Shown here in pieces: positions 2,961-42,691 of a stretch of DNA of 45,680 nt; within the stretch, counting starts at the first letter, position 1, and each line of letters opens with the position of its first letter. Both the position numbers and the translations under genes were made by a program. Below the pieces are notes generated by a model that saw only the letters and a list, made by a program, of their open reading frames with translations, was not told the DNA's origin and did not search any database. Source of the stretch: a virus; the IMG/VR virus record IMGVR_UViG_3300034375_003810, positions 1 to 45,680 of that record. One strand, written 5' to 3'.

Positions 2961-3244
2961 TAATATACATTGCACTCTGCATAATCGGCATATATGAAGC
3001 TACTGACAGCTTACTATACACGTTCACAGGAAAAGACCTTAGCGTCTACTTCGATATGCTCGAAGGTAAGAAAGCTCAGAAGTATCTTAAGCCTATAATC
3101 TTCTGCACTCTTTGCATGAGTAGCTTTTGGGGTTTAACGCTTCAATTGACCTATGGCACGCCTTTAATGCTTATTACTAACCTATTCGCTATATGCGGGG
3201 TTGTTCGTATCGTTACGGCTATAATAGACAAACTAGATAAATGA
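2957..3244 (+). CDS. Small integral membrane protein (95 aa)
   Basis: Three hydrophobic stretches (about residues 1-14, 46-66 and 69-88) predict an inner-membrane protein. The second contains FCTLCMSSFWG, a CxxC motif entering the membrane. An amphipathic charged loop (LEGKKAQKYLK) lies between segments one and two. It overlaps its neighbours by four bases on each side. A membrane protein in a tail operon could act in entry or exclusion, or simply be co-expressed late; I cannot tell which. Confidence 0.65.
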   Translation: MIIYIALCIIGIYEATDSLLYTFTGKDLSVYFDMLEGKKAQKYLKPIIFCTLCMSSFWGLTLQLTYGTPLMLITNLFAICGVVRIVTAIIDKLDK

Positions 3245-3909
3245 AACTACTTTTCAAACTACTTTCTAAGGTATCTCCAGATACTATTGACGCTTACATT
3301 CGCCAAAGATGGACTAAGCCCGTAGGGTTCGAGGATCTTAACTTAGCCTTTATTGATGAAAGCGGTAAGGCTTGGTATGAGTTCGGTAACGGTATGGCTA
3401 ACCCTATTAAACGAATAGAGCAGCAATCTCAGTTCGTTTCTTTTCTGTCTGCAAGGGTAAGCCCTGAGGCTATGGAGATAGCTTATGAGGGTGTTACTAA
3501 GGCGTTCAATGAAGGCAAGTATCTAGAGGGCTTAGTTATCTTTAAGCGGTTCATGGATATGCGAGATATGATTATCCCGCTAGACGTTCTTATTAACGCT
3601 TTAGCTGCTGACTTTATACGTGAAGATGAGAGCATAACAGACATTAACGACAAGATACACCAAGAGAAATGCGACTACTTGAAAAAGGTAGTTGATAATG
3701 GTGATAGCTTTTTTTTTCAATTGACCGCTGTGAAAGACCTATCAGAACGGTTCAAGATTTCCAGAGACTCATGGGCGGTCATTTCGAAAGGCTACAAGGA
3801 AAGTCTAAACGAGCTAAAGGAAGAGATAGAGCTGGTTCGTTCGATGAACTTAGAAAAAGGATCGCTAACGAAAGCGCAACCCTCAGGCAATTCATCAGAA
3901 ACAACCTAG
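3241..3909 (+). CDS. Tail assembly chaperone (G-type), zero-frame product
   Basis: This 222-residue soluble, mostly helical protein lies directly before the tape measure gene, the conserved position of G/GT tail-assembly chaperones, which bind the tape measure and recruit tail-tube subunits. A nine-T run at 3709-3717 encodes three Phe (DSFFFQ) in this frame. From that run the -1 frame is open to 4025. The residues after the run in the zero frame are polar and low in recognisable structure. No sequence family was recognised; the call rests on location and the frameshift arrangement. It is coupled to the membrane protein gene upstream by a 4-base overlap. Confidence 0.65.
   Translation: MKLLFKLLSKVSPDTIDAYIRQRWTKPVGFEDLNLAFIDESGKAWYEFGNGMANPIKRIEQQSQFVSFLSARVSPEAMEIAYEGVTKAFNEGKYLEGLVIFKRFMDMRDMIIPLDVLINALAADFIREDESITDINDKIHQEKCDYLKKVVDNGDSFFFQLTAVKDLSERFKISRDSWAVISKGYKESLNELKEEIELVRSMNLEKGSLTKAQPSGNSSETT
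3709..3717 (+). other. Probable -1 ribosomal frameshift slippery site (nine T)
   Basis: The run reads TTT TTT TTT in the zero frame and contains a canonical T TTT TTT heptamer at 3711-3717. In the -1 frame the last stop is the TAG at 3705-3707, immediately upstream, and the frame is then open for more than 300 bases. This is the arrangement expected for a programmed frameshift. Confidence 0.65.
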
Positions 3910-4025
3910 CAACCAACGCTGAAGAGTTCAATCACTTGATGGGTTTGTCAGGTGAGCAAATGTTATTTGAAATTCGTATCTTTGTAGATAAGGTCTTAGA
4001 CCAACGCAAGCACTCTAAACGGTAG
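3717..4025 (+). CDS. Tail assembly chaperone T extension, made by -1 frameshift (GT fusion)
   Basis: A -1 shift at 3709-3717 would join residues 1-159 of the G product to 102 residues encoded here, giving a GT fusion of about 261 residues. This segment is charged and helical (SFDELRKRIANES; GLSGEQMLFEIRIFV). By analogy with lambda gpGT the T part would contact the tail-tube protein. If no frameshift occurs, an ATG at 3771 in this frame could start an 84-residue protein, but no leader feature supports it. The end is 28 bases before the tape measure start. Confidence 0.65.
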   Translation, partial: SIDRCERPIRTVQDFQRLMGGHFERLQGKSKRAKGRDRAGSFDELRKRIANESATLRQFIRNNLATNAEEFNHLMGLSGEQMLFEIRIFVDKVLDQRKHSKR

Positions 4026-4053: not shown

Positions 4054-6582
4054 ATGGCGGATAAAATAGTAGGCGTCTACGATATAAAGGTAGATCAAGC
4101 GGTAAAGAACCTCAACAAGCTAGAGAAAGAGGTTAAGGACGTTGGTACTCAGTCTAAGAAAACCGCTAAAGATACAGAGCAGCAATATACTAAACTTTCT
4201 AAGAATCTAAGCGGCTCGTTTAAGAATTTAGGTAGGCAACTGGCTGGTGCTTTTGCTATTGGTGGCTCTGTTATGCTTCTAAAGAACGCTATAACTGGAA
4301 TAATCAACACTACCAAAGACTTTGAGTTCCAGATGTCTAGAGTTAAGGCTATCACGGGTGCAACTAGCAAAGAGTTCAATAAGCTTTCTACTGACGCTAA
4401 GAGGCTAGGTGCTTCTACTAAATTCACCGCTACTCAGGTAGCTGAATTGCAAGAGGAGTTCGCTAAACTAGGCTTTTCCACTACTGAGATACTTAACGCG
4501 ACTGAAGCAACTTTAACACTAGCTGAAGCTACAGGTAGTGAACTTGCAGAATCGGCTAACGTAGCGGGTGCGGTTCTTAGGTCGTTCGGTTTGGATGCTG
4601 AAGAAACCCAGAGGGTTGTTGACGTAATGGCTTTAAGTTTTTCTAAGTCTGCTCTTAACATGACTGACTTTAGCGAGGCTATGAAGTTTGTAGCTCCTAT
4701 TGCTAAGTCCGCTAATATAGAGATTGAAACGGTAACCGCTTTACTAGGCAAGTTAGCAGATAGCGGTTTGCGTGGTTCTATCGCTGGTACTGGGTTAAAG
4801 AACCTATTAGCTGAACTATCAAACGAAAACAGTCAACTAGCTAAGAGGATTGGTTTTTCCGTCAAGAATAGTAACGACCTTACTAAAGCTTTCGAGGTTC
4901 TAGCTACTAAGAATATTGACCTTACAGAAGCGTTAGCCCTTACAGATAAAAGAAGTGCAGCAGCCTTTACTACCTTGATCAGAGGTGCTGAAGATGTAAA
5001 GATATTAAATGATGAACTAGTAAACGCTACGGGTGCAGCTCAGGAGATGGCTGATGTAATGCGTGATAATTTAAAGGGCGATTTAGATCAGCTTAGCGCG
5101 TCATTTGAAAGGCTTCAGTTAGCACTCGGTGAGGGTGAAGGTGGACTAGCTAGACTAGCTAGGTTAGGGGCTAAAAACTGGACAAGTTACGCAGAAGCTG
5201 CTACTAGAGCTGCTTTGTCTAACGACCAACTAATTGAGCAGAAAACGGCTGAGCAGTTTGCTGAAATATCAAAAAGCATAGATGAGAGTAGTTTGTCTAT
5301 TGATGAGTTAATAAAGAAATACGGAGAACTTCTAGTAGGTAGTATAGATAACTACCAAGCTCTAGTTGATCAGGGTAGGGTTACTGATGAGGTTAACGAA
5401 ACATGGCTATCTAGCATAAATGCACTTCAGCAAGTTGTGAATATGCTTAGGGAAAAAAGAGACGCACAAAAAGAAGATAACGAAGAAACGGAAAACGCGG
5501 TAGTAGTTACAGATTTATATGTTAACTCAATAAACCAACTAAATAAGGAATTAAAAGACTATCAAAAAGAACTTAAAGACGCTGAGATAGGTTCTACAGA
5601 GTTTTTTAATATAGTTGACAAGATAAATAAAAAGACTAGAGAGCTTAACGATGCTATAGCCATGACAAAGCTAGCCGATGCTCTAAAGGTTGATGTTGAA
5701 GTAGATGAAGATGGTGAGGATAGATTTATAGCTAATCAATTAGAGTTTTTAGATCAGAACTTTCCAGATGCAGTAGAAAGAGCTACTACTTATGCTAGTG
5801 ATCAATGGGATGAGTACTTTAATAGTGTAATGGAAGGTCAAGATGAAATGACCGAGCATAATAAGGCTTCTTTTTTCGATTACGCTAATGCTACTGGTGA
5901 TCTGTTCGCGAATCTCTCTCAGATACAAAGAAACCTAAACGAAGAGGAACTAAACAACCTAGCAGCTCAATTAGAAAGAGGGCAAATAACTAGAGAGGAG
6001 TACGATGCAAAGCGTAAAGAGATAATGAGAGAGCAAGCGGAAAGCGATAAGGCTCTAGCTATCTTTGACGCCACTGTTAACGGTGCTTCTGCTATCGTTA
6101 ATGCTTTGAACACAGACCCCACAGGAGTGTTAGCCGCTATAGTTGGTGCTAGTGTTGCGGCTCAAATTGCTGCTATTGCCTCGCAACCTTTACCACAGTT
6201 TGCAGAGGGTGGTTTCATTAATGAGCATGGTGAGTTTGTGGGTCGTAAACACTCACAAGGTGGTGTTAAGATAGAGGCTGAAGGCGGTGAGTTTATAACT
6301 GCTGCAAAGTACGCGCAACCTAACAAGGATATACTGAAAGCTATTAACTCTGGAAGCTGGGAAAAGTACAAAGTGGAAAACATAATAGCCCCAGCTATTG
6401 AACAAGTTCTAGAAGGTGGCTTGCAAGGCTTAGGAGCTTCTTATAGCTTACAGAATAACTTTAACGATAGAAACCTACTTAAAGCCATAGATAGACATAG
6501 GAATAGTGATAAGGACGGTTTTATGTATTTGGCTAAAGAATTGAAAAGAATGAACCCACGTAAACGAGGCGGCTTTGCTTGA
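4054..6582 (+). CDS. Tape measure protein (TP901-type core)
   Basis: At 842 residues this is the longest gene of the tail core. It sets tail length and is threaded through the tail tube. The N-terminal 60 residues form a Lys/Glu-rich coiled coil, followed by a hydrophobic segment (about 70-90). The conserved TP901 tape-measure core follows at about 90-360, with MSRVKAITGATSKEF, TKFTATQVAELQEEFAKLGF and ADSGLRGSIAGTGLKNLL as recognisable landmarks. A long helical region and a Gly-rich end (FAEGGFINEHGEFVGRKHSQGG) complete it. At the usual 0.15 nm per residue the tail would be about 125 nm. Its 3' end overlaps the next gene by eight bases. Confidence 0.92.
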   Translation: MADKIVGVYDIKVDQAVKNLNKLEKEVKDVGTQSKKTAKDTEQQYTKLSKNLSGSFKNLGRQLAGAFAIGGSVMLLKNAITGIINTTKDFEFQMSRVKAITGATSKEFNKLSTDAKRLGASTKFTATQVAELQEEFAKLGFSTTEILNATEATLTLAEATGSELAESANVAGAVLRSFGLDAEETQRVVDVMALSFSKSALNMTDFSEAMKFVAPIAKSANIEIETVTALLGKLADSGLRGSIAGTGLKNLLAELSNENSQLAKRIGFSVKNSNDLTKAFEVLATKNIDLTEALALTDKRSAAAFTTLIRGAEDVKILNDELVNATGAAQEMADVMRDNLKGDLDQLSASFERLQLALGEGEGGLARLARLGAKNWTSYAEAATRAALSNDQLIEQKTAEQFAEISKSIDESSLSIDELIKKYGELLVGSIDNYQALVDQGRVTDEVNETWLSSINALQQVVNMLREKRDAQKEDNEETENAVVVTDLYVNSINQLNKELKDYQKELKDAEIGSTEFFNIVDKINKKTRELNDAIAMTKLADALKVDVEVDEDGEDRFIANQLEFLDQNFPDAVERATTYASDQWDEYFNSVMEGQDEMTEHNKASFFDYANATGDLFANLSQIQRNLNEEELNNLAAQLERGQITREEYDAKRKEIMREQAESDKALAIFDATVNGASAIVNALNTDPTGVLAAIVGASVAAQIAAIASQPLPQFAEGGFINEHGEFVGRKHSQGGVKIEAEGGEFITAAKYAQPNKDILKAINSGSWEKYKVENIIAPAIEQVLEGGLQGLGASYSLQNNFNDRNLLKAIDRHRNSDKDGFMYLAKELKRMNPRKRGGFA

Positions 6583-16377: not shown

Positions 16378-16887
16378 TTATTGAGTTCGCGGCTTCGCTG
16401 GGTTACCGTAAACAATAGATCTTTCTTTAACATCTTTAACAACTGATGAGCCTAGACCTATTAGCGCGTTTTCTTCAATTATAAGGCGGTTTCTAAGCGT
16501 TGCCCCTAGTTTGACCTTTACACCGCTTTTAATTATGGTATAGCCTCCTATAATAGCCCCTGTGCATATTTCGCAGCTATCTAGTATCTTTACATCATGC
16601 CCGATATGAGAATGAGCCATAATTAGGTTATCGTTTCCTATGTAGGTAGTTCTAAATTCAAAAGGTCTTTGAATAGTTACGTGTTCGCTGATAACGTTAT
16701 TATCGCCTATGCTTACGTTACCTTTAAACTCTTTCTGGTCTTTTCCACGTATCTCACCGTTTGAGCCTATTACCGTATAAGCTCCTATCCAGTTACCTTT
16801 ACCTAGCCTTACATTTGGGTAAATGATAGCGGTACGGTGAATGTAATTACCGTCTATATTGATATACTCAGCCTCATGTAAATTCAT
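16378..16887 (-). CDS. Hexapeptide-repeat acyltransferase (left-handed beta-helix)
   Basis: The 169-residue product is built almost wholly of hexapeptide repeats ([LIV]-G-x-x-x-x), for example LGKGNWIGAYTVIGSNGEI and TGAIIGGYTIIKSGVKVKLG, which fold as a left-handed beta-helix. The segment NLIMAHSHIGHDVKI places a His where LpxA and PglD/NeuD-type transferases have their catalytic His. The end, GSSVVKDVKERSIVYGNPAK, is the usual cap of sugar O- and N-acyltransferases. It probably acetylates a sugar or lipid-A-like precursor. Start and stop overlap the neighbouring GT2 gene by four bases, so the two enzymes are co-translated and probably act on one glycan. Confidence 0.85.
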   Translation of the reverse strand: MNLHEAEYINIDGNYIHRTAIIYPNVRLGKGNWIGAYTVIGSNGEIRGKDQKEFKGNVSIGDNNVISEHVTIQRPFEFRTTYIGNDNLIMAHSHIGHDVKILDSCEICTGAIIGGYTIIKSGVKVKLGATLRNRLIIEENALIGLGSSVVKDVKERSIVYGNPAKPRTQ

Positions 16888-17552
16888 TTCAGATACGGTA
16901 GTTTTTTGGTAATTATTTCGGGGTCAATGTATTCTGCATTTTGCCATTTGCTAAACGGGGTTATGTTTATTTTGCTCTTTAGATCAACCGCTATTAAACC
17001 GTTCTTTTTTAGGTTTATGCTTTTCGATTTACCTAGGTTCATCTTCGCGGTCATTGAACTATCTAAATACTTATTCAACCCATCATCCCACGGCTTCCAT
17101 TTCCATGATTCCATAACCTCAGAAGATATACATCTACCCGCGCCAACTGTTAACCCTTTCCTATGGTCTGAGTATCCAGCCCAGTACAAAGCCTTACCGC
17201 TTCTAAGGTCGTAAAAATACAGATCCTCTAAGCCTATAAAGTCGTAACCTCGTTTCATGTATCGCATATACAATGCAAATACTTCGGGCGTTATTATATC
17301 ATCAGAACCCATGCAAATAACGTAGTCAGAACCTTTAGCCTCTTGCGTTGCCGCGTTCATCTTATTGCTTAGAGGCTTGTTTCTTTTTTCGATATACTCA
17401 AAGCCCTCAGAGGTAACTAAACGCCTAGATGTTACACCCTCACTACCTGAGACTATTACGCGAATGTTATAGGGTAGGTTCTTTACACCTTTAGCGAATA
17501 GCTTAAAGACTTCTGGTCTTTTCCATACGCCCGTACATATAGTTATATTCAT
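16884..17552 (-). CDS. Family 2-like glycosyltransferase, first gene of antisense cassette
   Basis: I use the ATG at 17552, 222 residues; the TTG three codons upstream lies next to the promoter box. The fold is GT-A: a strand-rich start (MNITICTGVWKRPEVFKLFA), the KPLSNKMNAATQEAKGSDY nucleotide-binding region and the metal-binding acidic motif MGSDDII (SDD at 83-85). It would transfer a sugar from a nucleotide donor. Its promoter (17559-17566) is divergent from that of the structural gene at 17650. With the acyltransferase and second transferase it forms a glycan-modification operon. Targets could be virion proteins, phage DNA or host surface polysaccharide; the sequence does not decide. Confidence 0.82.
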   Translation of the reverse strand: MNITICTGVWKRPEVFKLFAKGVKNLPYNIRVIVSGSEGVTSRRLVTSEGFEYIEKRNKPLSNKMNAATQEAKGSDYVICMGSDDIITPEVFALYMRYMKRGYDFIGLEDLYFYDLRSGKALYWAGYSDHRKGLTVGAGRCISSEVMESWKWKPWDDGLNKYLDSSMTAKMNLGKSKSINLKKNGLIAVDLKSKINITPFSKWQNAEYIDPEIITKKLPYLK

Positions 17553-17558
17553 TAAAAG

Positions 17559-17566
17559 CAAAGATA
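17559..17566 (-). promoter_or_regulatory. Minus-strand -7 box TATCTTTG for the glycan cassette
   Basis: On the minus strand TATCTTTG ends six bases before the ATG at 17552, giving a very short leader. It lies back to back with the plus-strand box at 17579-17586, with only 12 bases between them, so the two transcription units probably interfere or are co-regulated. Confidence 0.6.
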
Positions 17567-21840: not shown

Positions 21841-22941
21841 ATGGCTTGTCAGCCTTTATACGACAAACTATTTAAACCTAATATAATGTCTTATACGCCT
21901 AGTTCATTGGTGGCTTGTCCGAATCTTCAAGAAGATTTAGATAGAATTTTCGGAGCTGAGCCAGCTAAATATTACATCGAACCTGTACCTTTCACGCAGT
22001 ACCTAATGTCTCCAGCAAACCGTTCTGACCTCAAAATGATGGTTAGCCCAGGATCTGCTAAGACTAGAACAGTTCAAGCAATTTATCAGCCTCGTATCCT
22101 TTCTAGCGAAGTTCAGTCTAACGTAAGCGATTACTGCAACGCTTCAACTGAAAGAGGTACAACTTCTACTACTTACTCAATTGACACTACTCAGAACCTT
22201 TTCATTGAGCAGTCTTTTGATGTAGATAACCTAGCTGCTGCTTGCCGTGATAACGCTGATTGGTTCAACGATCAAATCTTGAAAATGGTTGTGGCAATGG
22301 ATAGCCGAGTTAACCAAAAGAACGCTACTCAAGCGGGTGCGCTTCTTGGTGGCTGGTCTGCTGATGTTTCTGGTATTCCTTTCGCTACTTTGAGTGCTGA
22401 TGTATTGAAAGTTAGAACTCAGAAAACTGCATCTGATACTGATATTTTCTACCAATCTCAGCAAGCGGTTGTATCTGCTGCTGAAGCGTCTCACTTCGGT
22501 CAGTTCATCACTATTGGAGGTTTCGGACTTCACAACTACATGAAGATGATGGAGCACGGATGCTGCGCGAGTAGCGGGCTAGATGTTGCTTCACTTCAGC
22601 GTGAGTTCGGTTTCGCTTCTGTACGCGATAGAGATGTAGCTACGGCTGCTGGAGGTAACGAGTTCGCATGGGCGGTTGCTAACGGTTCTTTGCAAGTTCT
22701 TTACTACAACAGATGGCAAGGTCTTTTCGAGTCTCGCGATGCAAACCAAAGCTACGGAGTAATTAACTCACCTTCTACTGGAATGGCTTACGACCTAGTT
22801 GTTAAGCATGACTGTGGAGTGATTGACGTTACTTTGACTGCTACTACTAAATTGGTAGCACTTCCTGACGATATGTTCCAAACTGGAGATCACATGGAGG
22901 GAGTTAAAGGTTTCGCGGCTATCGAAGTAGATAACGCTTAA
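21841..22941 (+). CDS. Major capsid protein (HK97-fold candidate, 366 aa)
   Basis: This 366-residue protein lies after the scaffold and before the connector and portal genes. It has its own promoter and terminator, as for an abundant product, and uniform codon choice (TTC, AAC, GCT, ACT, CGT). It lacks membrane segments or enzyme motifs and is rich in Ala, Ser, Thr and Asp. An N-terminal arm, a long central helix (DNADWFNDQILKMVVAMDSR) and a C-terminal region with DVTLTATTKLVALPDDMF fit the HK97 plan. It contains seven to eight Cys, including HGCCASSG, unusual for capsids. There is no sign of a fused protease. Confidence 0.82.
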   Translation: MACQPLYDKLFKPNIMSYTPSSLVACPNLQEDLDRIFGAEPAKYYIEPVPFTQYLMSPANRSDLKMMVSPGSAKTRTVQAIYQPRILSSEVQSNVSDYCNASTERGTTSTTYSIDTTQNLFIEQSFDVDNLAAACRDNADWFNDQILKMVVAMDSRVNQKNATQAGALLGGWSADVSGIPFATLSADVLKVRTQKTASDTDIFYQSQQAVVSAAEASHFGQFITIGGFGLHNYMKMMEHGCCASSGLDVASLQREFGFASVRDRDVATAAGGNEFAWAVANGSLQVLYYNRWQGLFESRDANQSYGVINSPSTGMAYDLVVKHDCGVIDVTLTATTKLVALPDDMFQTGDHMEGVKGFAAIEVDNA

Positions 22942-22955
22942 TTAGTCTTTAATTT

Positions 22956-22986
22956 GGGGGGTTAGGTTTTGCCTAGCCCTCCTTTC
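22956..22986 (+). terminator. Intrinsic terminator after the capsid gene
   Basis: GGGGGGTTAGG (22956-22966) pairs over 11 positions with CCTAGCCCTCC (22972-22982) around a TTTTG loop, then TTTCTT. The T-tract is imperfect, so it may be leaky and lower expression of the connector genes relative to capsid. Confidence 0.75.
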
Positions 22987-22998
22987 TTACTTTTCAGA

Positions 22999-23991
22999 AT
23001 GGCTTGTTTCGATAATATCATTAGTTATAAAGGGGGTTGTGAATCGGTTAGCGGTTTGAAGCTAGACCAAGTTGTAACGATAAAAGAGGTTGAGAGTTTT
23101 ATAGATGCTGACTACGGGTCGGCTTCTGAGTTTATTGACGATAAGATTTCTTTTGCGATTACCAACGTGGTTAACGAGGCTACTAATCACTTCCAGAGCT
23201 ACTATATTCCTAAGACCATATTAGACGATAAAAGGGCGGGTTTCTTTGACCAAGATAAGGTAGAAGTAGCTGCTGAAGCCAAATACAAGGGCGTAGAGTT
23301 AGAGCTTTGCGACCAAGATACTTATTACGAGTTATTCGTTAACTCAATCGAAACATACCTAAATTATACGGGTGATGTTGATGTGCTTGTTATTGATACG
23401 ATGACAGGCGAAACACTAGATACTGTAACTGTTTCTAGCGTGGCTGGTTCAATAGTAACTACCCACGTAGGCAAGAGTTACAAAGCTGAAAAGCGAAAGC
23501 GTAGAATAGGTTTTGTTTATGATGCTACAAGTGTACCAAACTACAAGACCGAGTTAATTAGCGCGGGTTGTCATGCTTGTAATAAAGGGCGTTATAACCT
23601 TAGCGGAATAGTGCAAGGTAGAAACATTAGCTATGATCTAGCTGATACGCCTATTCTAGCTAATGTTAACGGTGAATCAAACACTAGCGGGTTATCTATT
23701 CGCTTTAATGTCACTTGCGATAATGAAAGCTGGATATGTAACTACAGAAACCTACTAGCATTACCAATACTATATAGAACTGCTGAATTGATTATGGATT
23801 ACGCTGTATTTAATACGGATAGGTTAAACAGTCAAGCGGTTAAGAAACAAGTTCTAGAAGCTAGGCAAATGAAATACCACGAGGACTATCTAGCAGCTTT
23901 AGATACTGTTCTAAAGAATATGATACCTCCTACAGATGGCTACTGCTTTAGCTGCAAAAGAAACGCTAAATATACAACTACACTACCTTGA
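22999..23991 (+). CDS. Virion structural protein, probable head-tail connector component (330 aa)
   Basis: I start at the ATG at 22999, giving MACFDNIISYKGGC, the third MAC- start in the structural genes. The in-frame codons upstream lie inside the terminator. The 330-residue product has an acidic beta-rich centre and a C-terminal CxxC (YCFSCKRNAKY) that may bind metal. It lies between capsid and portal where neck and connector genes are found. It is coupled to a tiny ORF and the gene at 24056 downstream. No motif identifies it further. Confidence 0.6.
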   Translation: MACFDNIISYKGGCESVSGLKLDQVVTIKEVESFIDADYGSASEFIDDKISFAITNVVNEATNHFQSYYIPKTILDDKRAGFFDQDKVEVAAEAKYKGVELELCDQDTYYELFVNSIETYLNYTGDVDVLVIDTMTGETLDTVTVSSVAGSIVTTHVGKSYKAEKRKRRIGFVYDATSVPNYKTELISAGCHACNKGRYNLSGIVQGRNISYDLADTPILANVNGESNTSGLSIRFNVTCDNESWICNYRNLLALPILYRTAELIMDYAVFNTDRLNSQAVKKQVLEARQMKYHEDYLAALDTVLKNMIPPTDGYCFSCKRNAKYTTTLP

Positions 23992-24068
23992 ATCAAGTTG
24001 TAGGACATAAACAATATTTGGCTAAGATGTCAGACGAACTGATAACATTTGTTATATGGCTGAACTGA
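23988..24068 (+). CDS. Possible 26-residue bridging ORF
   Basis: A TTG overlapping the stop of the upstream gene (CCTTGA) opens a frame that runs exactly across the 64-base gap and ends 13 bases inside the gene at 24056. The peptide (MNQVVGHKQYLAKMSDELIT, then FVIWLN) is short, with a hydrophobic end. It could be a leader peptide that couples translation of the two flanking genes. Its fit to the gap is the only support. Confidence 0.3.
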   Translation: MNQVVGHKQYLAKMSDELITFVIWLN

Positions 24069-24625
24069 CACCTAAACAATTTGCTGCTGAGATAAAGAAG
24101 AGGGCTAACCTTTTGAAAGCTCAGAATAAGCCTTTGCAGATAGCCGCGCAAACGGCTCACGCTTTGAGGGTTAAGCGTATATTTCATGATGGGCTAGATA
24201 GCAATAACTCTAGTATAGGTAGCTACTCAACAAGTCCAGAGGTATGGATTTCAAACGACTACCATAGAAGGGGCGGCAACAAGGGTAAAAGCGGTAGAGC
24301 TAAAAAGACTAGCTACTACAAGTCTTATGCTGACTTTAAGAAGTCTCAGGGCTTTGGTTCTAATATTGTGCTAAGACAAACTAACCGCTTGCAGAGTGAT
24401 TTCGCAAATAGGCAGATTAGCCCTAATTCAGACGGTTTACCAAACTCTAAGCCGATTAGAGTAACTAAGGATAGGTATATCGAAAGAATCACCTCAGAGA
24501 ACGAAGAAAAGATAAAAGGTAGAGAAAATATCTTTAACTTTACAAATAAAGAAAAAGCCGTATTTAATCGCGTTTACAATGCAACGGCAACTAAGATTTT
24601 AAACGGTCAAACAACTAGATTATAA
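24056..24625 (+). CDS. Probable head-tail joining / virion morphogenesis protein (189 aa)
   Basis: This basic 189-residue protein (MAELTPKQFAAEIKKRANLL, then IAAQTAHALRVKRIFHDG) has the layout of HK97 gp10-like and virion-morphogenesis connector proteins: an N-terminal helix, a basic loop rich in Gly, Lys and Arg (YHRRGGNKGKSGRAKKTSYY), then a beta domain. Such proteins finish the neck or tail terminator ring. It shares TAATG with the following tiny gene and lies directly before the portal gene. The family call is by resemblance only. Confidence 0.55.
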   Translation: MAELTPKQFAAEIKKRANLLKAQNKPLQIAAQTAHALRVKRIFHDGLDSNNSSIGSYSTSPEVWISNDYHRRGGNKGKSGRAKKTSYYKSYADFKKSQGFGSNIVLRQTNRLQSDFANRQISPNSDGLPNSKPIRVTKDRYIERITSENEEKIKGRENIFNFTNKEKAVFNRVYNATATKILNGQTTRL

Positions 24626-24663
24626 TGGGCTGTAACTGTAAAAAGAAAAAAGGCAAGAAATGA
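24625..24663 (+). CDS. Cys/Lys-rich 12-residue microprotein
   Basis: ATG at 24625 overlaps the upstream stop (TAATG), and its own stop overlaps the portal start (ATGA), so it fits exactly between two virion genes. It encodes MGCNCKKKKGKK, with a CxC pair and seven Lys. The double overlap and the non-random composition support translation. It may bind metal or nucleic acid, or may only link translation of the connector and the portal. It is too short for similarity-based calling. Confidence 0.5.
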   Translation: MGCNCKKKKGKK

Positions 24664-26468
24664 CCCCAGAAGAGGTACTAGATAACGTATTGGAGGCAAG
24701 TAAAGACCTCTACAAAGTAGATAAAGATGGAAACTGCTACTTTGAAAGACTACCTTACTATTACGAGGGTTATGCAGCAGCAGTAAACCAACGTAAAAGA
24801 ATCAAGGTTCACGCTAATATTGACGAGTTCCCTTATGAGCTTTTCAAGAAACGAGCCCCGAATCAGAACGATGAGGAAAACGAATATCTGAGAGAGAACT
24901 ACAAGAATACCACTCACCCTGTTTTTGTGGACTACTTGAGCGTGGTTACTACTGGGCTTAATGACTATAACTGGTCTATAGAATACCCTCAGAACGCTGA
25001 AAGCTATATTGAGTACATTGATAACGGTATAAAAGGTTTTACGAGCTTAGACGGTTATGTAAAGAAGATTATTCCAACTACAAAAGCAAAAGACCCTAAC
25101 GGAGTTGTAACATTTACGGTAGCTCCTAATTTAGTTGAGGTTGATGGTGAGTTGAGAATTGACGATACAGAAAACCTAAAGCCGCAGCCTATCTATTACA
25201 AGTGCGATAACGTAGTAGCTTGGGGCGATGACCATGCGATGCTAGAAAGCCATGAGAAAAGCGCGGTTGAGTATTACGGCAAGATTCAGCGCGTAGGTAG
25301 GGTTTTCTACTATTATGATACTGAGTACATTTACAAGATAGTTCAGAAAGGTAAATTGATAGATAACCTTTTTGACATTGTGCCAGTATTCAAGCATGAT
25401 CTAGGCTACTTGCCTTGCGATAAATTAAAGGGTGTTCCTTCTATCTTAGAAGATGGTTCTATCTATTACACCTCACCATTCTACTACGCGGTTGATTTGT
25501 TGGATTGGTCTTTGACTTATAGCAACTACTTAAATGTAAGTGTAGCTAATTCAGCGTTTCCGTTTAGGATTATGGTAGGCGATGCTTGCGACTTCCAAAG
25601 CGAGGGCGGTAAGTGTTTTAACGGAAAATGGATTTCTAACGATGGTAGCGCGGGCGGTCATTGTCCAGAGTGTAACGGCTCAGGAATGAAAGTTAGAGTA
25701 AGCCCTATGGGTACTTATCTTCTAAGACCTAAACAGGGGCAAGATGAGGGCGATACTTCATTTACTAACCCTGTTGAGTACGTTAGCCCTGACCGTAATA
25801 TCTTAGACTTTGTAAAGGAACTAGCTAAACAATACTTTAACGATGCTAGGTCTATTCTGCATATTCACACATCTAACTCAGAGGTGAAGGGTAGCGAAGA
25901 TATGACTGCTACGGGTATGGCTATTGACCAAAAGGCTAAGTTTGCATTTGTTCAGCCTATCTCAGATCAGGACTTTGATATTTACCAATTCTATCTAGAC
26001 TTGTTTGCTGATTTAAGAGGTGAGGAATCTGCTAAACTTACATACCCTAAGACATTCGACTTCTTAACGGAGGCTGACATTCTAAGTGATATTGCAGTAG
26101 CTAGGGCAAGTAAAGCTCCAGCAGCTATTATCCACAGTTTGATATACCAATTCATCGACAGAAGATTCCATAGCGAAGGCGAAAAAGCTAAAGCCATAGA
26201 GGTACTTATTGCTGCTGACAGATTGCTAACGCTGACTAGCGATGAGATAATCCAAAGAAAGGCGCAAGGTGCTATAGATAACTGGGAGATAGTTCTACAT
26301 GATTCTGGATTGAAGTTCATTAACGACTTAATCATAGAAGATGCTAACTTCTTAAACTTGGAGCTTACAGAACAAGTAGCCAAGCTAACAGAATTGGCTA
26401 AGTCAACTGCTCCAAACCCATTAGCGGGGCGTACTCAAGAACTTACAGATAGGTTGATCGGTGGCTGA
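24660..26468 (+). CDS. Portal protein (602 aa) with an internal Cys4 motif
   Basis: The dodecameric portal forms the DNA entry vertex and binds terminase. At 602 residues, location beside a MuF protein (8-base overlap), high charge and the sequence of a beta-rich wing followed by long helices (PDRNILDFVKELAKQYFNDA and the region up to TEADILSDIAVARASKAPAA) fit a portal. Unusually, residues 310-338 carry C310-x8-C319 and C335-PE-C338 followed by NGSG, like a zinc ribbon, in the wing region. No Walker or nuclease motif exists. The start ATG overlaps the stop of the microprotein. Confidence 0.78.
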   Translation: MTPEEVLDNVLEASKDLYKVDKDGNCYFERLPYYYEGYAAAVNQRKRIKVHANIDEFPYELFKKRAPNQNDEENEYLRENYKNTTHPVFVDYLSVVTTGLNDYNWSIEYPQNAESYIEYIDNGIKGFTSLDGYVKKIIPTTKAKDPNGVVTFTVAPNLVEVDGELRIDDTENLKPQPIYYKCDNVVAWGDDHAMLESHEKSAVEYYGKIQRVGRVFYYYDTEYIYKIVQKGKLIDNLFDIVPVFKHDLGYLPCDKLKGVPSILEDGSIYYTSPFYYAVDLLDWSLTYSNYLNVSVANSAFPFRIMVGDACDFQSEGGKCFNGKWISNDGSAGGHCPECNGSGMKVRVSPMGTYLLRPKQGQDEGDTSFTNPVEYVSPDRNILDFVKELAKQYFNDARSILHIHTSNSEVKGSEDMTATGMAIDQKAKFAFVQPISDQDFDIYQFYLDLFADLRGEESAKLTYPKTFDFLTEADILSDIAVARASKAPAAIIHSLIYQFIDRRFHSEGEKAKAIEVLIAADRLLTLTSDEIIQRKAQGAIDNWEIVLHDSGLKFINDLIIEDANFLNLELTEQVAKLTELAKSTAPNPLAGRTQELTDRLIGG

Positions 26469-27867
26469 GTTTTCAAAGGAAATAAAAGCCCTAGTTAGCG
26501 AAAAGCTAAACAGATTGGAAAGTGTACCTAACGCCTTCCTTTCTAGTATGGAAAAGATACAAAGAACAAAGTTCAAAGATGTAGTTAGTCTTTTGGATAT
26601 GCTAGACTATGAGGGCGGTTCTTTGGTTGTTTCTGAGGCTAACTTACTTAGAGTTGAGGCGTTAGTTGATGAGATAAAAGGAGTGCTTACGGGTTCTGAG
26701 TTTGAAAAAGCTCTAGGTGGTTTAATGGGTGAGTTTGAGCAACAAGCGGTATTGAATTACGCTTACTTTGAAACGGTAGATGCAGCCTTTGCGATACCTC
26801 AGATTAGTTCAGCTATTGTAAAAGAAAGGCAAGCGGCTACTATTGCAAGTTTACTAGATAGCACAAACCAATACCTAAGTAACCCTACTAGGGAGGCTAT
26901 AGCTAGTTCGATTCAGTCAGGTGGTAGCCGTCAAGACCTTATAGATACTTTGCGCTTATTAGTGCAAGGCGATAAAGATATAGATGGTAGGTTACTAAGA
27001 TCTACTAGGCTAATTGTATCTGATGCTTTCGCGCTAAATGATGCAGCAGTTAGCGAGTCGATAGCCGATAATCTAGGGCTAGAGTGGTACTTTTATACAG
27101 GCGGTACTATGGACACTACGAGATGCTTTTGCAGAGAAAGAAACGCTAAGTTTTATCACAAAACAGAAGTAGAAAAGTGGGGTGCTCTAGATAAGAAAGC
27201 ACTAGGTAAGTGCTACTCTTCAAAATATGGATGGCAAGGTAGAATGCCTAATACAGATAAAAAGACAATATTCCTAACAAGAGGCGGCTATAATTGCCAA
27301 CATTCACTACTACCAGTTAGTGAGGAGGTTGTGCCGCCAGAAGTCGTAAATAGAGTTTTTGGAGGTAAGGGGAACAATGTGAAAATTAAAATATCAAACA
27401 ATAGCGGGTTTGACCTTGATATTAAAAGCATAAATCAGCACGCAAGATTAAAAGCCAATGAATATGGATTAACAGACAATTTTGTTATTGAAATATCTAA
27501 AAGTGAAAATGTAGGTGGTGGAGTTTCATTCAAAAAAGTTTCAAATGATTTATCAAAGTTTGATAATAAAGTAGAAATATACACAGACGGAACACTTACG
27601 AAAAAACAATATAACCAAATAATAAACCACGAATTAAGGCATGTACAACAAGGTCAATTAGACAGGTTGCAAATGAGAAGAAACAAATCAGGAAGATGGG
27701 ATTTATATTGGGAAGGAAAGAAATATATGTCTGCGACTGAATACGAAAGGCTTACAAAAAGAATAACAAACCCAAGGCTTTCAGCACCTAAAAGATATGA
27801 GGCTTTCAAGAAATACTCTAACCTGCCTTGGGAAAAAGAGGCTTTTGATAATGACGGAACATTTTAA
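26461..27867 (+). CDS. MuF-type minor head protein fused to an HExxH metallopeptidase-like domain
   Basis: Residues 1-300 are a phage head morphogenesis (MuF/SPP1 gp7-like) protein: helical start, then DTTRCFCRERNAKFYHKTEV and GGYNCQHSLLPVS, the Cys/His hallmarks of the family, which sits by the portal and enters the capsid. Residues 301-468 are a separate domain with HELRH at 390-394 (HExxH zinc motif) and a later PWEKEA at 456-461, whose Glu could be the third ligand. This is the design of MuF-linked polymorphic toxins. The C-terminal part is visibly more A/T-rich (about 30% G+C in the line at 27421 against 38% at 26461, by hand count). It is translated with the portal and followed by a 48-residue acidic gene. 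Confidence 0.78.
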   Translation: MAEFSKEIKALVSEKLNRLESVPNAFLSSMEKIQRTKFKDVVSLLDMLDYEGGSLVVSEANLLRVEALVDEIKGVLTGSEFEKALGGLMGEFEQQAVLNYAYFETVDAAFAIPQISSAIVKERQAATIASLLDSTNQYLSNPTREAIASSIQSGGSRQDLIDTLRLLVQGDKDIDGRLLRSTRLIVSDAFALNDAAVSESIADNLGLEWYFYTGGTMDTTRCFCRERNAKFYHKTEVEKWGALDKKALGKCYSSKYGWQGRMPNTDKKTIFLTRGGYNCQHSLLPVSEEVVPPEVVNRVFGGKGNNVKIKISNNSGFDLDIKSINQHARLKANEYGLTDNFVIEISKSENVGGGVSFKKVSNDLSKFDNKVEIYTDGTLTKKQYNQIINHELRHVQQGQLDRLQMRRNKSGRWDLYWEGKKYMSATEYERLTKRITNPRLSAPKRYEAFKKYSNLPWEKEAFDNDGTF

Positions 27868-37540: not shown

Positions 37541-37665
37541 AACGATACCAGATAAGACGCTGGGATATGCGCAACACACTAAGAGTAAAAAAGTATCTTT
37601 TTCCTTTGTGGTTTATGATGAATTTAACTACATTTGGACTAATCTATTCAATGACAATAAACTAA
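37537..37665 (+). CDS. Possible small membrane protein upstream of the helicase (42 aa)
   Basis: ATG overlaps the stop of the DnaA-like gene (ATGA), and the frame encodes a basic start (MKRYQIRRWDMRNTLRVKKY) and a hydrophobic end (LFPLWFMMNLTTFGLIYSMT). It would be a 42-residue tail-anchored peptide. The promoter of the helicase lies inside it. The clean overlap and the basic/hydrophobic split favour a real gene. Confidence 0.42.
   Translation: MKRYQIRRWDMRNTLRVKKYLFPLWFMMNLTTFGLIYSMTIN
37605..37636 (+). promoter_or_regulatory. Promoter P8, TTTG-N20-TACATTTG, for the helicase-methylase genes
   Basis: TTTG (37605-37608), 20 bases and TACATTTG (37629-37636), 34 bases before the ATG at 37671. 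It lacks the AGTCTAAAAAGT core and the inverted repeat of the other promoters, so it is probably read by the host sigma factor without phage control. Confidence 0.68.
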
Positions 37666-37670
37666 ATAAA

Positions 37671-39035
37671 ATGAACTATCAAGAATTTTTAGAAAGTAAG
37701 CGACATTCTTTAGGGGAGTTTGGTTTTGATGCTAATTACATTCCCGATATGGCTTTTGACTTTCAGCGACACGTAATAGAAAAGGCGGTTAAAAAAGGGC
37801 GTATAGCTGTTTTCTTAGATACTGGTCTGGGTAAGACCTTAGTTCAGCTTTCAATAGCTCAGAACGTTGTGAACCATACTAACAAAAAAGTATTGATTCT
37901 AACCCCTTTAGCCGTTGCGTTTCAATTTATTCTGGAAGCTGAAAAGCTAGGTATAGATGACATTGAGTACTCAAAGGACGGCAAGCACACAAAGAAGATA
38001 GTTATCTGTAATTACGAAAGGTTGCACTATTTCGATAGTAATGATTTCGCTTGTGTTGTTTTAGATGAGAGCTCTATTTTAAAGAACTTTGACGGCAAGA
38101 TTAAGAATCAGATAACTAGCTTTATAAAAAAAGTTCCTTATCGTTTCTTGAGCACGGCAACCCCTAGCCCTAATGACTTTATTGAACTGGGTACAAGTTC
38201 TGAAGTTTTAGGATATATGGGTTATATGGATATGCTGGGTAAGTTCTTTAAGAACAATCAAAACGACACAGGAGGTAGAAACAACATAGGCAACAAATTT
38301 TATCTAAAGCCACACGCGGAAAAAGACTTTTTTGCGTGGGTTAATCAATGGTCTATAATGGCAAAAATGCCGAGTGATTTAGGTTTTTCAGACAATCGTT
38401 ATAAGCTACCTGAATTGAACGTAAATAGACACGTAGTAAAAAACCAGTCTTTAATAGATGTTGATGGTCAAATACAAATGTTTACACCGATAGCAAAGAC
38501 AATGACAGAGGTTAGACACGAACAAAAGCAAACCGAGCAGAAAAGATGCGAAAAGGCTATTGAATTAGCTAACGGTAAAACCTCCGTATATTGGTGCAAT
38601 ACGAACGCTGAAAGCGCAATTCTAAAAGCTAATGATAGCGAAGCGGTTGAGATTATAGGTAGTCAATCAATAGATAAAAAAGAAGAGGCGTTACAAGCTT
38701 TTGCTAATGGAGAAATTAAGCGGCTAATAACAAAGGCTAAAATGACTGGAATGGGTTTAAATTGGCAGCATTGCAATCATTCGGTATTTTTTCCTACTTG
38801 GAGTTATGAGCAGTACTACCAAGCGGTTAGAAGGTTTTGGAGGTTCGGGCAGAAAAACGATGTTAATATTGATATGGTTATTTCAGACGGTCAAACAAGA
38901 GTTTTAGAAGCCTTGCAGCAAAAGACACAAAAAGCAATAGAACTACACAAGAGGCTAACAGAAAATGTAAACCGTTCATTTGTAGATGTACGAAAAGAGT
39001 TCAAAACAGAAATAGTAAAACCAACCTTTATATAA
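37671..39035 (+). CDS. SF2/SNF2-like DNA helicase (454 aa)
   Basis: I start at the ATG at 37671; an in-frame GTG at 37608 would lie in the promoter. Motifs of SF2 helicases are clear: FLDTGLGKT (Walker A, residues 48-56), VVLDESS (DExx, D132-E133), FLSTATPSPND (motif III), and QAVRRFWRFGQKNDV (motif VI with arginine fingers). The protein has no nuclease domain. It is followed after six bases by a DNA methyltransferase gene, and both have an A-rich codon style unlike that of the late genes. Roles could be replication-fork remodelling or, with the methylase, DNA modification or anti-restriction. Confidence 0.88.
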   Translation: MNYQEFLESKRHSLGEFGFDANYIPDMAFDFQRHVIEKAVKKGRIAVFLDTGLGKTLVQLSIAQNVVNHTNKKVLILTPLAVAFQFILEAEKLGIDDIEYSKDGKHTKKIVICNYERLHYFDSNDFACVVLDESSILKNFDGKIKNQITSFIKKVPYRFLSTATPSPNDFIELGTSSEVLGYMGYMDMLGKFFKNNQNDTGGRNNIGNKFYLKPHAEKDFFAWVNQWSIMAKMPSDLGFSDNRYKLPELNVNRHVVKNQSLIDVDGQIQMFTPIAKTMTEVRHEQKQTEQKRCEKAIELANGKTSVYWCNTNAESAILKANDSEAVEIIGSQSIDKKEEALQAFANGEIKRLITKAKMTGMGLNWQHCNHSVFFPTWSYEQYYQAVRRFWRFGQKNDVNIDMVISDGQTRVLEALQQKTQKAIELHKRLTENVNRSFVDVRKEFKTEIVKPTFI

Positions 39036-39041
39036 AAAGAA

Positions 39042-40061
39042 ATGAAAGTAAAAGAACAAGAAGTTACCGATAACTGGGCGATATACAATGGTGATTGTAT
39101 GGACTTACTGCCAACCCTAGAAAATGAAAGCATAGACCTGAGTATATACTCTCCTCCGTTTGCTAATCTTTACACTTATTCAAGCGATGCAAGAGACATG
39201 AGCAACGTGGATAGTAACGAGCAGTTTTACCAGCAATACGAATATCTTGTAAAAGAAATGGCAAGAGTTACAAAGAGCGGTAGAATTAACGCCATACATT
39301 GTACTGATTTATTTAAATATAACGGTGCTTTATATGATTTTCCAGCAGAAATAATAAAGCTACACGAAAAGTACGGGTTTACTTATATGAGTAAAATTAC
39401 TATTTGGAAAGAGCCCTTAAAAGTTCGTATCAAAACAATGGTTCAATCTTTAATGCACAAATTTATAATAGAAGATAGTACTAAAAACTACCCAGCAATG
39501 CCTGACTATGTCATTTTGTTTAAAAAGAAAGGCGAAAACGAAGTACCAGTAACGCACCCTTTTGGTCTATCTAATTATGCTGGAGAACGCCCGATAATGC
39601 CTGAGACGGTCGGTATTTATAATAGAGCTAACGGAACTGACTTTACAACTCCTGATCAACTTTGGGAGTACGTAAAAAACAAATACAAAGACCACGAAGA
39701 CCCAAAAACAAACAAATTGAGCCATATGATTTGGCAGCGTTACGCGAGTGCGTTATGGGATGACATACGCGTAGAGAACTGCCTACCATTTAAAGATTCA
39801 AAAGAAGACGATGACGAAAAGCACGTTACCCCAACTCAGTTAGATGTAATTGATAGGCTTGTTGAATTATATTCTAACCCTAACGAGGTTGTTTTAACGC
39901 CTTTTATGGGTGTTGGTTCGGAGGTATTCAGCTCCGTTTCAATGGGTCGAAAGGCTATCGGAATAGAGCTAAAAGATAGCTACTTTAAGCAAGCTAAATT
40001 AAATCTAAAAGAAGCTGAAAAGCGGTTTAGAGAATCAGTAAAACAAGCTAGCTTATTTTGA
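39042..40061 (+). CDS. Beta-class DNA methyltransferase (339 aa)
   Basis: Motif IV SPPF (residues 37-40) is near the N-terminus after YNGDCMDLLPTLENESIDL, and the SAM-binding motif I TPFMGVGSEVFSSVSMGRKA with GIELK is near residue 290. This order (IV before I) defines the beta class, which makes N4-methylcytosine or N6-methyladenine; SPPF favours neither with certainty. A target-recognition region lies between. Methylating the phage genome would protect it against host restriction. No cognate nuclease is encoded. The stop overlaps the TTG of the next gene (TTTTGA). Confidence 0.88.
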   Translation: MKVKEQEVTDNWAIYNGDCMDLLPTLENESIDLSIYSPPFANLYTYSSDARDMSNVDSNEQFYQQYEYLVKEMARVTKSGRINAIHCTDLFKYNGALYDFPAEIIKLHEKYGFTYMSKITIWKEPLKVRIKTMVQSLMHKFIIEDSTKNYPAMPDYVILFKKKGENEVPVTHPFGLSNYAGERPIMPETVGIYNRANGTDFTTPDQLWEYVKNKYKDHEDPKTNKLSHMIWQRYASALWDDIRVENCLPFKDSKEDDDEKHVTPTQLDVIDRLVELYSNPNEVVLTPFMGVGSEVFSSVSMGRKAIGIELKDSYFKQAKLNLKEAEKRFRESVKQASLF

Positions 40062-40297: not shown

Positions 40298-40901
40298 AAG
40301 ATTCACGGATACAGACAAATGGAAAAAGCCTTTTATAAGGGGCTTAGAAGCTAAATATAAGCTACTCTGGTTTTATCTTCTGGACGATTGCGATCATGCT
40401 GGTATATGGATAGTAGACCTAGAAATAGCTTCTATCAGATGTGGTTTTGACTACTCAGAAAAAGAAGTACTAAGGGTTTTCAAGAACCATATTCAAGTAG
40501 TTAAGGGTGGCAAATATTGGTTTATTGAGGACTTTGTAGACTTTCAATATGGAGAGCTTAACCCTCATAATAGGGCTCATGCTTCTGTTATCGGCAAATT
40601 AAAGAAGTATAAAATTAAGCCCCTTATAAGCCCCTTACATGGGGCTAAAGATAAAGACAAGGATAAGGATAAAGATAAAGACAAAGAAAAAGATATACCT
40701 ACGTTCGATGAGTTTTACGAGTATGGCGTTAAGTATCGAAATGTTGACAAGGAAGAGCTACGTTTGAAGTACGCTAGCTGGGTTGCTAATGATTGGCGAG
40801 ATGGAAATGATAACCCGATAAAAAACTGGAAAACAAAGCTGCTCAATACAATCAAATTTCTTAAACTTGCAGAATCAACAAAAACGAGGATAGCACTATG
40901 A
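40290..40901 (+). CDS. Replication initiator-like protein with (KD)n linker (203 aa)
   Basis: I start at the ATG at 40290; a TTG two codons upstream is possible. The N-terminal part (WKKPFIRGLEAKYKLLWFYL, then DHAGIWIVDLEIASIRCGFD) looks like the winged-helix domain found in phage O-type and DnaD-like replication proteins. A low-complexity linker of repeated Lys-Asp, encoded by AAAGAT/AAAGAC hexamers at 40645-40692, joins it to a C-terminal helical domain (LRLKYASWVANDWRDGNDNP). In lambda O the origin iterons lie inside the gene, and the hexamers may act likewise. It overlaps the primase-helicase gene by four bases. Confidence 0.68.
   Translation: MSKRFTDTDKWKKPFIRGLEAKYKLLWFYLLDDCDHAGIWIVDLEIASIRCGFDYSEKEVLRVFKNHIQVVKGGKYWFIEDFVDFQYGELNPHNRAHASVIGKLKKYKIKPLISPLHGAKDKDKDKDKDKDKEKDIPTFDEFYEYGVKYRNVDKEELRLKYASWVANDWRDGNDNPIKNWKTKLLNTIKFLKLAESTKTRIAL
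40612..40692 (+). repeat. Iterated AAAGAT/AAAGAC hexamers inside the replication gene; partner of 18277-18342
   Basis: AAGCCCCTT occurs twice (40617-40625 and 40628-40636), followed by AGCCCCTTACATGGGGCT, an inverted repeat, and about eight hexamers of the AAAGAT type. The same order occurs in the intergenic region at 18277-18342 with about 89% identity. It is both coding (KD repeats) and a candidate origin of replication. Confidence 0.65.
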
Positions 40902-42691
40902 AGAAAATAATTGAGTGGGATAGTATCGAAGTCAGAGGTAACAGGTCTGGAAGTAAGAAAACAACTTGCCCAGCTTGTTCACCTGACAGAAGAAACTCTA
41001 AAGACCCTTGCCTATCTGTTAACTTTGAGAAAGGACTTGCAAACTGCCATCATTGCGGTGCGGTTAGCTTTAGAAAAGATGAGAGCTTTAAACCGACCTA
41101 CACACCACCGCCTCAAGACTGGCAAAACTATACTAACCTATCCGATGGAATGGTTAAGTATTGCGCTAGTCGCGGGATACCTCAGAGGGTTCTTATTGAC
41201 TTTAGGATAACAGAAGAAAAGCAATGGTTACCGCAAACCAACAAAAAAGAGAACTGCATTGTATTCAACTACTTCGAGGGCGATGAGATAGTTAACAAGA
41301 AGTTTAGAGATGGGCGTAAGAACTTTAGCCAGTCTAAGGATGGTAAAAGAATGCTTTATAACATTAACTCAATAGTAGGTGCTAAAGAGGTCTATATAGT
41401 AGAGGGTGAGTTCGATGTTCTAGCAATGGCTTCGCAAGGTATAGACAACGTGGTTAGTCTAGTGAATGGTGCTAATGACCACGATGACCAATGGGTGAAC
41501 TCTCAAAAGTACCTAGATGACGTTGAGCATTTTATTATAGCGGTTGATAATGACCCTAAAGGAATTGAGGTACGGGAAAAGATAGCTCACAGGCTAGGTA
41601 AATGGAGGTGTAGTTATATCGAATGGACTGATAAAGACGCTAACGGATCTGTAATGTCAAATAACTTTGACAGCGATCTAACTAAGATTGTAAGGTTTCC
41701 AGTTAGCGGTACACACACCGTTAAAGACCTAGAAGCTGGTATATTCGACCTACACAGAAACGGACTGCCTAAGACTATCAAACCAAAGCATAAGAGCTTC
41801 GATAATGTAAACGACATCTTCAGCGTTATGAAAGGTCATTTAGTAACCGTTACGGGTATCCCTTCGCATGGTAAGTCAAATTATGTTGAATGGTATGTTT
41901 TGAATCTAGCTAACGACCATGATATGAAAGCTAGTTTCTTTAGCCCTGAACATACGCCTATGGCACTACATCAAACTAATTTCATGCAGAAGGCGATAGG
42001 TCGTAACTTCTGGAAAGACGTAGATGGTTTGCCACGTATAAAAGAAAGCGATATTTCACGATATACTGAATGGGCAAATGAAAAGCTATACATAACTGCT
42101 CCAGATAGGGGTGAGGTTGCTACGTGGGAATGGCTTATAGATAAGTTTAAAGAGCAGCTATACAGTTACGGTATTAACATCTTTGTAATTGATGCTTTCA
42201 ATAAAGTTCAAATGCCACAGGGTAACAGGCTAGAAAGCATTAACGACATTCTAACCAAGTTAACCGCTTTCGCTCAGTCTAATGATGTTATAATATTCTT
42301 AGTAGCTCACCCTACTAAAATGAAAAAGAAAGATAATACAGATGTTTACGAGATGCCTACGCTATACGATGTTTCAGGTAGTGCGGACTTCAGAAACCAA
42401 ACGCATGACGGTTTCACAATTCACAGACATTTCGGAGATGAGCCTTGTACTGAGTTTGCTAGCATGAAAGTAAAGTTTCAATTTCAAGGTAAGATAGGCG
42501 AAACTTGCAAGATGGATTATGATCTTCCAACTGGAAGGTATTACGAAAAAGGAACTAACCCTCCACGCTTTGACATGACCATACCAATGGAAGAGCAAAT
42601 ATTAGCCCCAGCAATGAAGCCTAGCCCTAGCTTTAACACTAACGAGACATTTTACGATATAGATGAAGAAGAGACCTCAACGCCATTTTAA
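40898..42691 (+). CDS. Bifunctional primase-helicase (T7 gp4-like, 597 aa)
   Basis: The protein makes primers and unwinds the fork. It has a zinc ribbon (C24-PA-C27, C50-HH-C53), a TOPRIM primase core (VYIVEGEFDVL with E170; IIAVDNDP with D217 and D219) and a RecA-like DnaB-type helicase with Walker A GIPSHGKSN (320-328), Walker B IFVIDAFN (428-435) and FLVAHPTKM. The acidic C-terminus (DIDEEETSTPF) is like the tail of T7 gp4, which contacts the polymerase. With no polymerase gene visible, host PolIII or PolA is probably used. It is coupled by four bases to the initiator-like gene. Confidence 0.93.
   Translation: MKKIIEWDSIEVRGNRSGSKKTTCPACSPDRRNSKDPCLSVNFEKGLANCHHCGAVSFRKDESFKPTYTPPPQDWQNYTNLSDGMVKYCASRGIPQRVLIDFRITEEKQWLPQTNKKENCIVFNYFEGDEIVNKKFRDGRKNFSQSKDGKRMLYNINSIVGAKEVYIVEGEFDVLAMASQGIDNVVSLVNGANDHDDQWVNSQKYLDDVEHFIIAVDNDPKGIEVREKIAHRLGKWRCSYIEWTDKDANGSVMSNNFDSDLTKIVRFPVSGTHTVKDLEAGIFDLHRNGLPKTIKPKHKSFDNVNDIFSVMKGHLVTVTGIPSHGKSNYVEWYVLNLANDHDMKASFFSPEHTPMALHQTNFMQKAIGRNFWKDVDGLPRIKESDISRYTEWANEKLYITAPDRGEVATWEWLIDKFKEQLYSYGINIFVIDAFNKVQMPQGNRLESINDILTKLTAFAQSNDVIIFLVAHPTKMKKKDNTDVYEMPTLYDVSGSADFRNQTHDGFTIHRHFGDEPCTEFASMKVKFQFQGKIGETCKMDYDLPTGRYYEKGTNPPRFDMTIPMEEQILAPAMKPSPSFNTNETFYDIDEEETSTPF

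Follow-up and report, generated by a model that had tools for sequence, protein, structure and literature searches.

A predicted −1 recoded tail gene with an all-T slippery site upstream of the tape-measure gene in a phage of probable Bacteroidota hosts and its relatives

A two-frame gene and its relatives

The window analysed here, i.e. the whole stretch of 45,680 nucleotides of IMG/VR record IMGVR_UViG_3300034375_003810, carries on its plus strand an open reading frame of 222 amino acids (3241–3909), the predicted short, G-like product of a two-frame gene that lies directly upstream of the gene for a tail length tape measure protein (4054–6582, plus strand; PHROG 1533 with E = 1.5e-73, among other PHROGs, and Pfam PhageMin_Tail with E = 3.5e-38). 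Within this frame a run of nine T (T9, 3709–3717, plus strand) is read as AGC TTT TTT TTT CAA (3706–3720) and contains the in-frame slippery heptamer T_TTT_TTT at 3711–3717 of the same strand; about 64 last codons of the ORF are situated 3' of this site. The −1 frame is closed directly 5' of the run by TGA TAG (TAG at 3705–3707) and is open from 3708 to the TAG at 4023–4025. A slip after codon 159 would be followed by about 102 codons of this frame (3717–4025, plus strand), and the putative long, GT-like product would be a fusion of 159 + 102 = 261 amino acids.

Re-reading of the sequence bore out an earlier note on this DNA with respect to the T9, the in-frame T TTT TTT, all of their positions, and a −1 frame that is closed just before the run and open to 4025, giving a 261-residue fusion ahead of the tape measure. 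The same note had argued from the succession of stop, slip site and open frame that the site is functional. We attach little weight to this argument because a stop just 5' of the run is no conserved signature of the family: the −1 frame of most relatives is already open 5–14 codons further upstream of the run. The window is AT-rich and has 13 runs of at least eight A or T, a T9 by itself being not rare there, and, according to the window's ORF lists, no run of at least this length other than that at 3709 falls inside an ORF of at least 150 amino acids. By the same lists, A9, T9 and T10 runs at 1638, 2421, 18382, 20613, 20927, 33840 and 36458 are located outside long ORFs.

Relatives were gathered from IMG/VR by searches with the 222-aa protein, the terminase and a profile; among deposited phages, the 222-aa protein had no match. 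The relatives of this protein range from 83% identity (locus L001) down to about 20%. The gene was present in 108 records, of which 105, including the window's own slice, reach the slip site, the other three being contigs that end before it; stricter de-duplication left 93 distinct loci. The heptamer was found in frame and at the same position in 105 of 105 records, as T_TTT_TTT in 98 and as T_TTT_TTC in 7, and the first slippery phenylalanine codon was TTT in 31 of 31 cases, the ratio elsewhere in the gene being 93 TTT to 110 TTC. Complete −1 extensions measure 95–109 codons in every record and zero-frame tails past the slip 50–65 codons, truncated records aside, while the +1 frame is shut within 3–20 codons in all loci. 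In close relatives, the −1 protein is conserved from the first residue after the slip. The gene that follows in the relatives has a median length of 834 amino acids, and those sampled match tape-measure or related PHROGs.

The earlier note had looked to related phages for a conserved T-run and −1 frame, and had named relatives with the second frame but no slippery run as evidence to the contrary. Both features are kept in all of the 105 records, and no relative reaching the site was devoid of the run. Within the set of records compared, the gene family therefore has the heptamer and the two downstream frames as its fixed features. Among other phages of Bacteroidota, a T-run cassette upstream of the tape measure was absent from the Porphyromonas, Parabacteroides PDS1, Elizabethkingia TCUEAP2, Bacteroides BKO1-3, hattifnatt and Nekkels phages, and scans of bacterial genomes revealed no prophage relatives that would name a host. 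The annotated tail assembly chaperone of Elizabethkingia phage TCUEAP2 (L168:11109–11816), like its counterparts in L167 and L169, consists of one ORF close to an A10 run, and is not homologous to the window gene by hhalign.

Sequence elements at the slip site in two clades

The sister clade, with approximately 20–30% identity to the window's protein, carries GGAGG (70 loci) or GGGGG (14 loci) in 84 of 84 distinct loci, always at exactly 9 or 10 nt upstream of the heptamer, the chance of either motif at these spacings being about 0.002 per locus; one example, with the element 9–10 nt before T_TTT_TTY, is L034:8430–8455. The element persists across changes of codon phase (AAG GAG G.. and GGA GG..) and of peptide (KEGS, KGGA, NGGA and EEGS), and its codons are skewed: glycine is encoded by GGA or GGG in 40 of 40 cases against a background of 13%, and glutamate by GAG in 44 of 44 against 43%. 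Since the same nucleotides are maintained across phases and peptides with such codon usage, they point to selection on RNA, for a signal of the kind that stimulates −1 shifting by bacterial ribosomes.

In E. coli dnaX, a Shine-Dalgarno-like (SD-like) element lies about 10 nt upstream of A_AAA_AAG. The sister-clade sites resemble dnaX in the position of GGAGG or GGGGG before the heptamer, and differ from it in having a U-run instead of an A-run, in belonging to another gene and to phages that start their genes without SD, and in their downstream hairpins, which are candidates in both clades with mostly weak z-scores and without covariation support. The sister-clade hairpin had 84% of cells paired and no compensatory pair, and none was seen in the fold of the close clade either; the hairpins are accordingly regarded here as candidates, and no conserved RNA structure downstream is claimed.

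Gene starts in the sister-clade loci are devoid of an SD signal (4.0% at ≤ −8 kcal/mol, as compared with 4.3% in shuffles), and the same crude method returned 22% against 6% in shuffles for lambda, 45% at annotated lambda starts and 0% at the gene starts of a Cellulophaga phage. The presence of an SD-like element at the slip site of phages that lack SD at their gene starts appears to be new and was unexpected; it is a feature of the relatives, not of the window. Gene-start statistics and the nearest phages together suggest that the hosts of the window phage and its relatives are probably Bacteroidota: the deposited phages whose tape measures are closest to that of L034 (20 records) all belong, wherever named, to Bacteroidota hosts, the window portal finds its matches exclusively in phages of Bacteroides, Parabacteroides and Elizabethkingia, and the top matches of the window tape measure come from Bacteroides, Flavobacterium and Cellulophaga phages.

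In Bacteroidia, the anti-SD of the ribosome is hidden and SD sequences go unrecognised; even so, a perfect SD-like element is retained at the +1 site of prfB in many of these bacteria (PMC8710568). The tail genes studied here look like a second example, of −1 type, beside prfB, with which they share the retention, at a site of recoding, of a near-perfect SD-like sequence despite the hidden anti-SD (PMC8710568). The prfB case differs in that the shift is +1, takes place at a stop codon and involves a short spacing, whereas the sites described here would serve −1 tandem slippage on a heptamer, at 9–10 nt, in a phage tail gene.

In the window's own clade, the SD-like element is mostly degenerate at the same spacing, with duplex energies from −2.5 to −10 kcal/mol. 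Its counterpart in the window is AATGG (3697–3701, plus strand; −5.8 kcal/mol, weak), which holds the 9-nt spacing taken by AGAGG in L001 and by GGAGG in the sister clade, and this weakness counts against ribosomal shifting in the window itself. T9 is present in all 13 window-clade members of the protein tree and in L020, whereas sister-clade sites have T6–T8, with one T9, and seven of these loci have six Ts only, followed by C. Most T9 sites are built as FFF, and those of L020, L102 and L103 as SFFL with TTG, in another codon phase. The 13 members with T9 group together with support on the tree; L020, which has T9 on a long branch, stands at the base of the other side. The T9 state takes two changes in all. 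Either the state with weak SD and T9 would be old and the SD-like element was gained along with a shorter run, or the reverse took place.

This distribution bears on the nature of the slipping machine. In the window's clade, RNA polymerase might slip on T9 and produce mRNAs whose run is longer by one U (or shorter by two), to be read normally into the fusion; we regard this as unlikely, albeit deserving of attention. A long A/T homopolymer of about nine or more in the coding strand, as such slippage demands, occurs throughout the window clade and, one T9 apart, not in the sister clade; T9 is kept in the former and in L020 despite differing codons; and most T9 sites are without a strong SD-like element, which always accompanies T6–T8 in the sister clade. 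A swap of this kind between slippage mechanisms in homologous genes has been recorded for dnaX, to judge from the title of Larsen et al. 2000, cited in PMC3711429. Set against these points are the in-frame heptamer kept in every clade, the T9 being partly forced by FFF with TTT codons, and the occurrence of AGAGG or AGGGG at stimulatory spacing in L001, L012 and L014 of the window clade. The sister-clade sites with six Ts and then C also fit tandem tRNA slippage better than slippage of the polymerase. That U_UUU_UUU is a modest ribosomal frameshift site in E. coli (PMC5009743) counts against shifting by the ribosome. In the T9 clade the ribosome presumably remains the slipping machine, to which the polymerase may contribute.

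As a tentative view, which we hold to be possible rather than probable, one homologous site may exist in two mechanistic states in Bacteroidota hosts. In one lineage, the SD-like element before T_TTT_TTY would be contacted by an anti-SD open to elongating ribosomes and not to initiation; in the window lineage, T9 without the element, either dropped or never acquired, would work possibly by polymerase slippage.

Predicted products and their likely role

The AlphaFold2 model of the 222-aa form had a mean pLDDT of 82.5 and a confident helix at residues 175–201, encoded past the slip; the −1 domain gave a weak model of four helices (68.5). Neither product matched any PHROG or Pfam family, no match with E below 0.001 was obtained to PDB sequences or, with Foldseek, to PDB and BFVD folds, and hhalign detected no similarity between lambda G and the window protein. 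Homology to known tail chaperones was accordingly rejected within the reach of PHROGs, Pfam, PDB sequences, Foldseek and hhalign. To our knowledge, the known families of tail chaperones are mutually unrelated and very diverse in sequence.

The closest known system is lambda gpG/gpGT, grouped here with the tail-assembly frameshift class of dsDNA phages of Xu et al. 2004. As in lambda, two overlapping frames lie directly before the tape-measure gene, with a −1 shift on a heptamer (PMC5009743; lambda record), and a short and a long product with a common N-terminal part would result. The differences are in the heptamer, GGGAAAG in lambda and all-T here, in the missing detectable homology, and in the distance from the slip to the zero-frame stop, which is 7 codons in lambda and 50–65 codons here, where both frames encode conserved C-terminal segments.

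The earlier note had proposed a G/GT chaperone made by programmed −1 shifting. The shift at the T-run is strongly favoured by the comparative evidence; the chaperone role finds no match in family or fold and is suggested, as the most likely one, by the position before the tape measure and by the G/GT-like architecture. It is improbable, in our estimate, that the site shifts the frame for products doing another job in the tail module: the long distance to the zero-frame stop and the lack of sequence or fold similarity to known chaperones would speak for it, whereas the gene's place just before the tape measure, its architecture with two products and the great sequence diversity of known tail chaperones speak against it.

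Selection on both frames and the proposed recoding

In three separate groups of relatives, synonymous change in the zero frame was about 1.0 of expectation upstream of the site, fell to 0.33, 0.58 and 0.39 of expectation in the first approximately 20 codons past it, and amounted to 0.44–0.57 across the whole overlap (3718–3909 in the window, plus strand). Beyond the zero-frame stop, differences between close pairs pile up at the wobble position of the −1 frame. With the slip placed 50–65 codons before the upstream stop, both frames come under constraint over that stretch, and such a long overlap constrained in both frames is, judging by these rates, a new trait.

These data leave a very slim chance that the downstream frame is a separate overlapping gene of 84 amino acids started at ATG 3771 (3771–3773, plus strand), whose sole presence in relatives had been named in the earlier note as evidence against frameshifting. 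Several close relatives do have an ATG at codon 20, as do many members of the sister clade near codon 24. The ATG at 3771 is, however, neither needed nor conserved, its position being taken by TTG in L001, L010 and L017, and 14 of 93 loci are without ATG, GTG or TTG over the initial 55 codons of the −1 frame; since many relatives are thus without a start codon, independent initiation is excluded as the common mechanism. Furthermore, the strong constraint sits between the slip and ATG 3771, and a separate gene would leave the invariance of the heptamer without a reason, so that an own start at this ATG is contradicted by the comparative data from both start codon loss and constraint before it. 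Homopolymers are error-prone, but an assembly or sequencing error in a gene of really one frame has a negligible probability and was ruled out, as the same frames and run recur in about 100 records from many metagenomes, T6C sites included, with selection on both frames past the site.

We found no mechanism other than a −1 fusion at the run with which the invariant heptamer, the two conserved frames, the constraint, the missing start codons and the closed +1 frame fit together. We therefore propose, with a probability of roughly 0.85, that 3241–4025 is one recoded tail gene with a −1 shift on T_TTT_TTT, the pair of products likely working like lambda gpG and gpGT. Most ribosomes would read straight on and make the 222-aa protein. 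A minority would shift by −1 at 3711–3717, where two tRNA-Phe in the P and A sites could re-pair on overlapping TTT codons, and would continue as far as 4025; the resulting 261-aa protein would share the N-terminal part of 159 residues and have another C-terminal domain. By analogy to lambda gpG/gpGT, the common part would coat the tape measure and the extra domain of the long form would recruit the major tail protein. That both products are made, and in which ratio, we infer from the sequence. This is a variant of the known G/GT frameshift, and its new elements are the all-T site, the long dual-constrained stretch and the unrelated protein family.

The analysis brings to light a large family of tail frameshift genes that lacks annotation and had escaped homology searches. 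It also supplies about 84 natural instances in which an SD-like element is under apparent selection at a −1 site in phages of presumably SD-blind hosts, and thereby makes testable the question, raised so far by the +1 site of prfB (PMC8710568), of whether the hidden anti-SD of Bacteroidia pairs during elongation. The lineages with SD and T6–T8 and those with mostly SD-less T9 represent a natural experiment on ribosomal versus transcriptional slippage.

Some other genes of the window should be mentioned. The gene order is unusual, with the terminase large subunit (121–1419) and then the tape measure (4054–6582) within 3 kb, and with a portal-like gene at 24660–26468 (in the region 21841–27867), which matches portals of Bacteroidota phages, about 20 kb downstream. 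A hexapeptide-repeat transferase and a family-2 glycosyltransferase (16378–17561, minus strand) lie on the opposite strand within the structural region, and an N6/N4 DNA methylase (39042–40061) adjoins a putative helicase (37608–39035) and a Toprim/DnaB-like primase-helicase (40898–42691).
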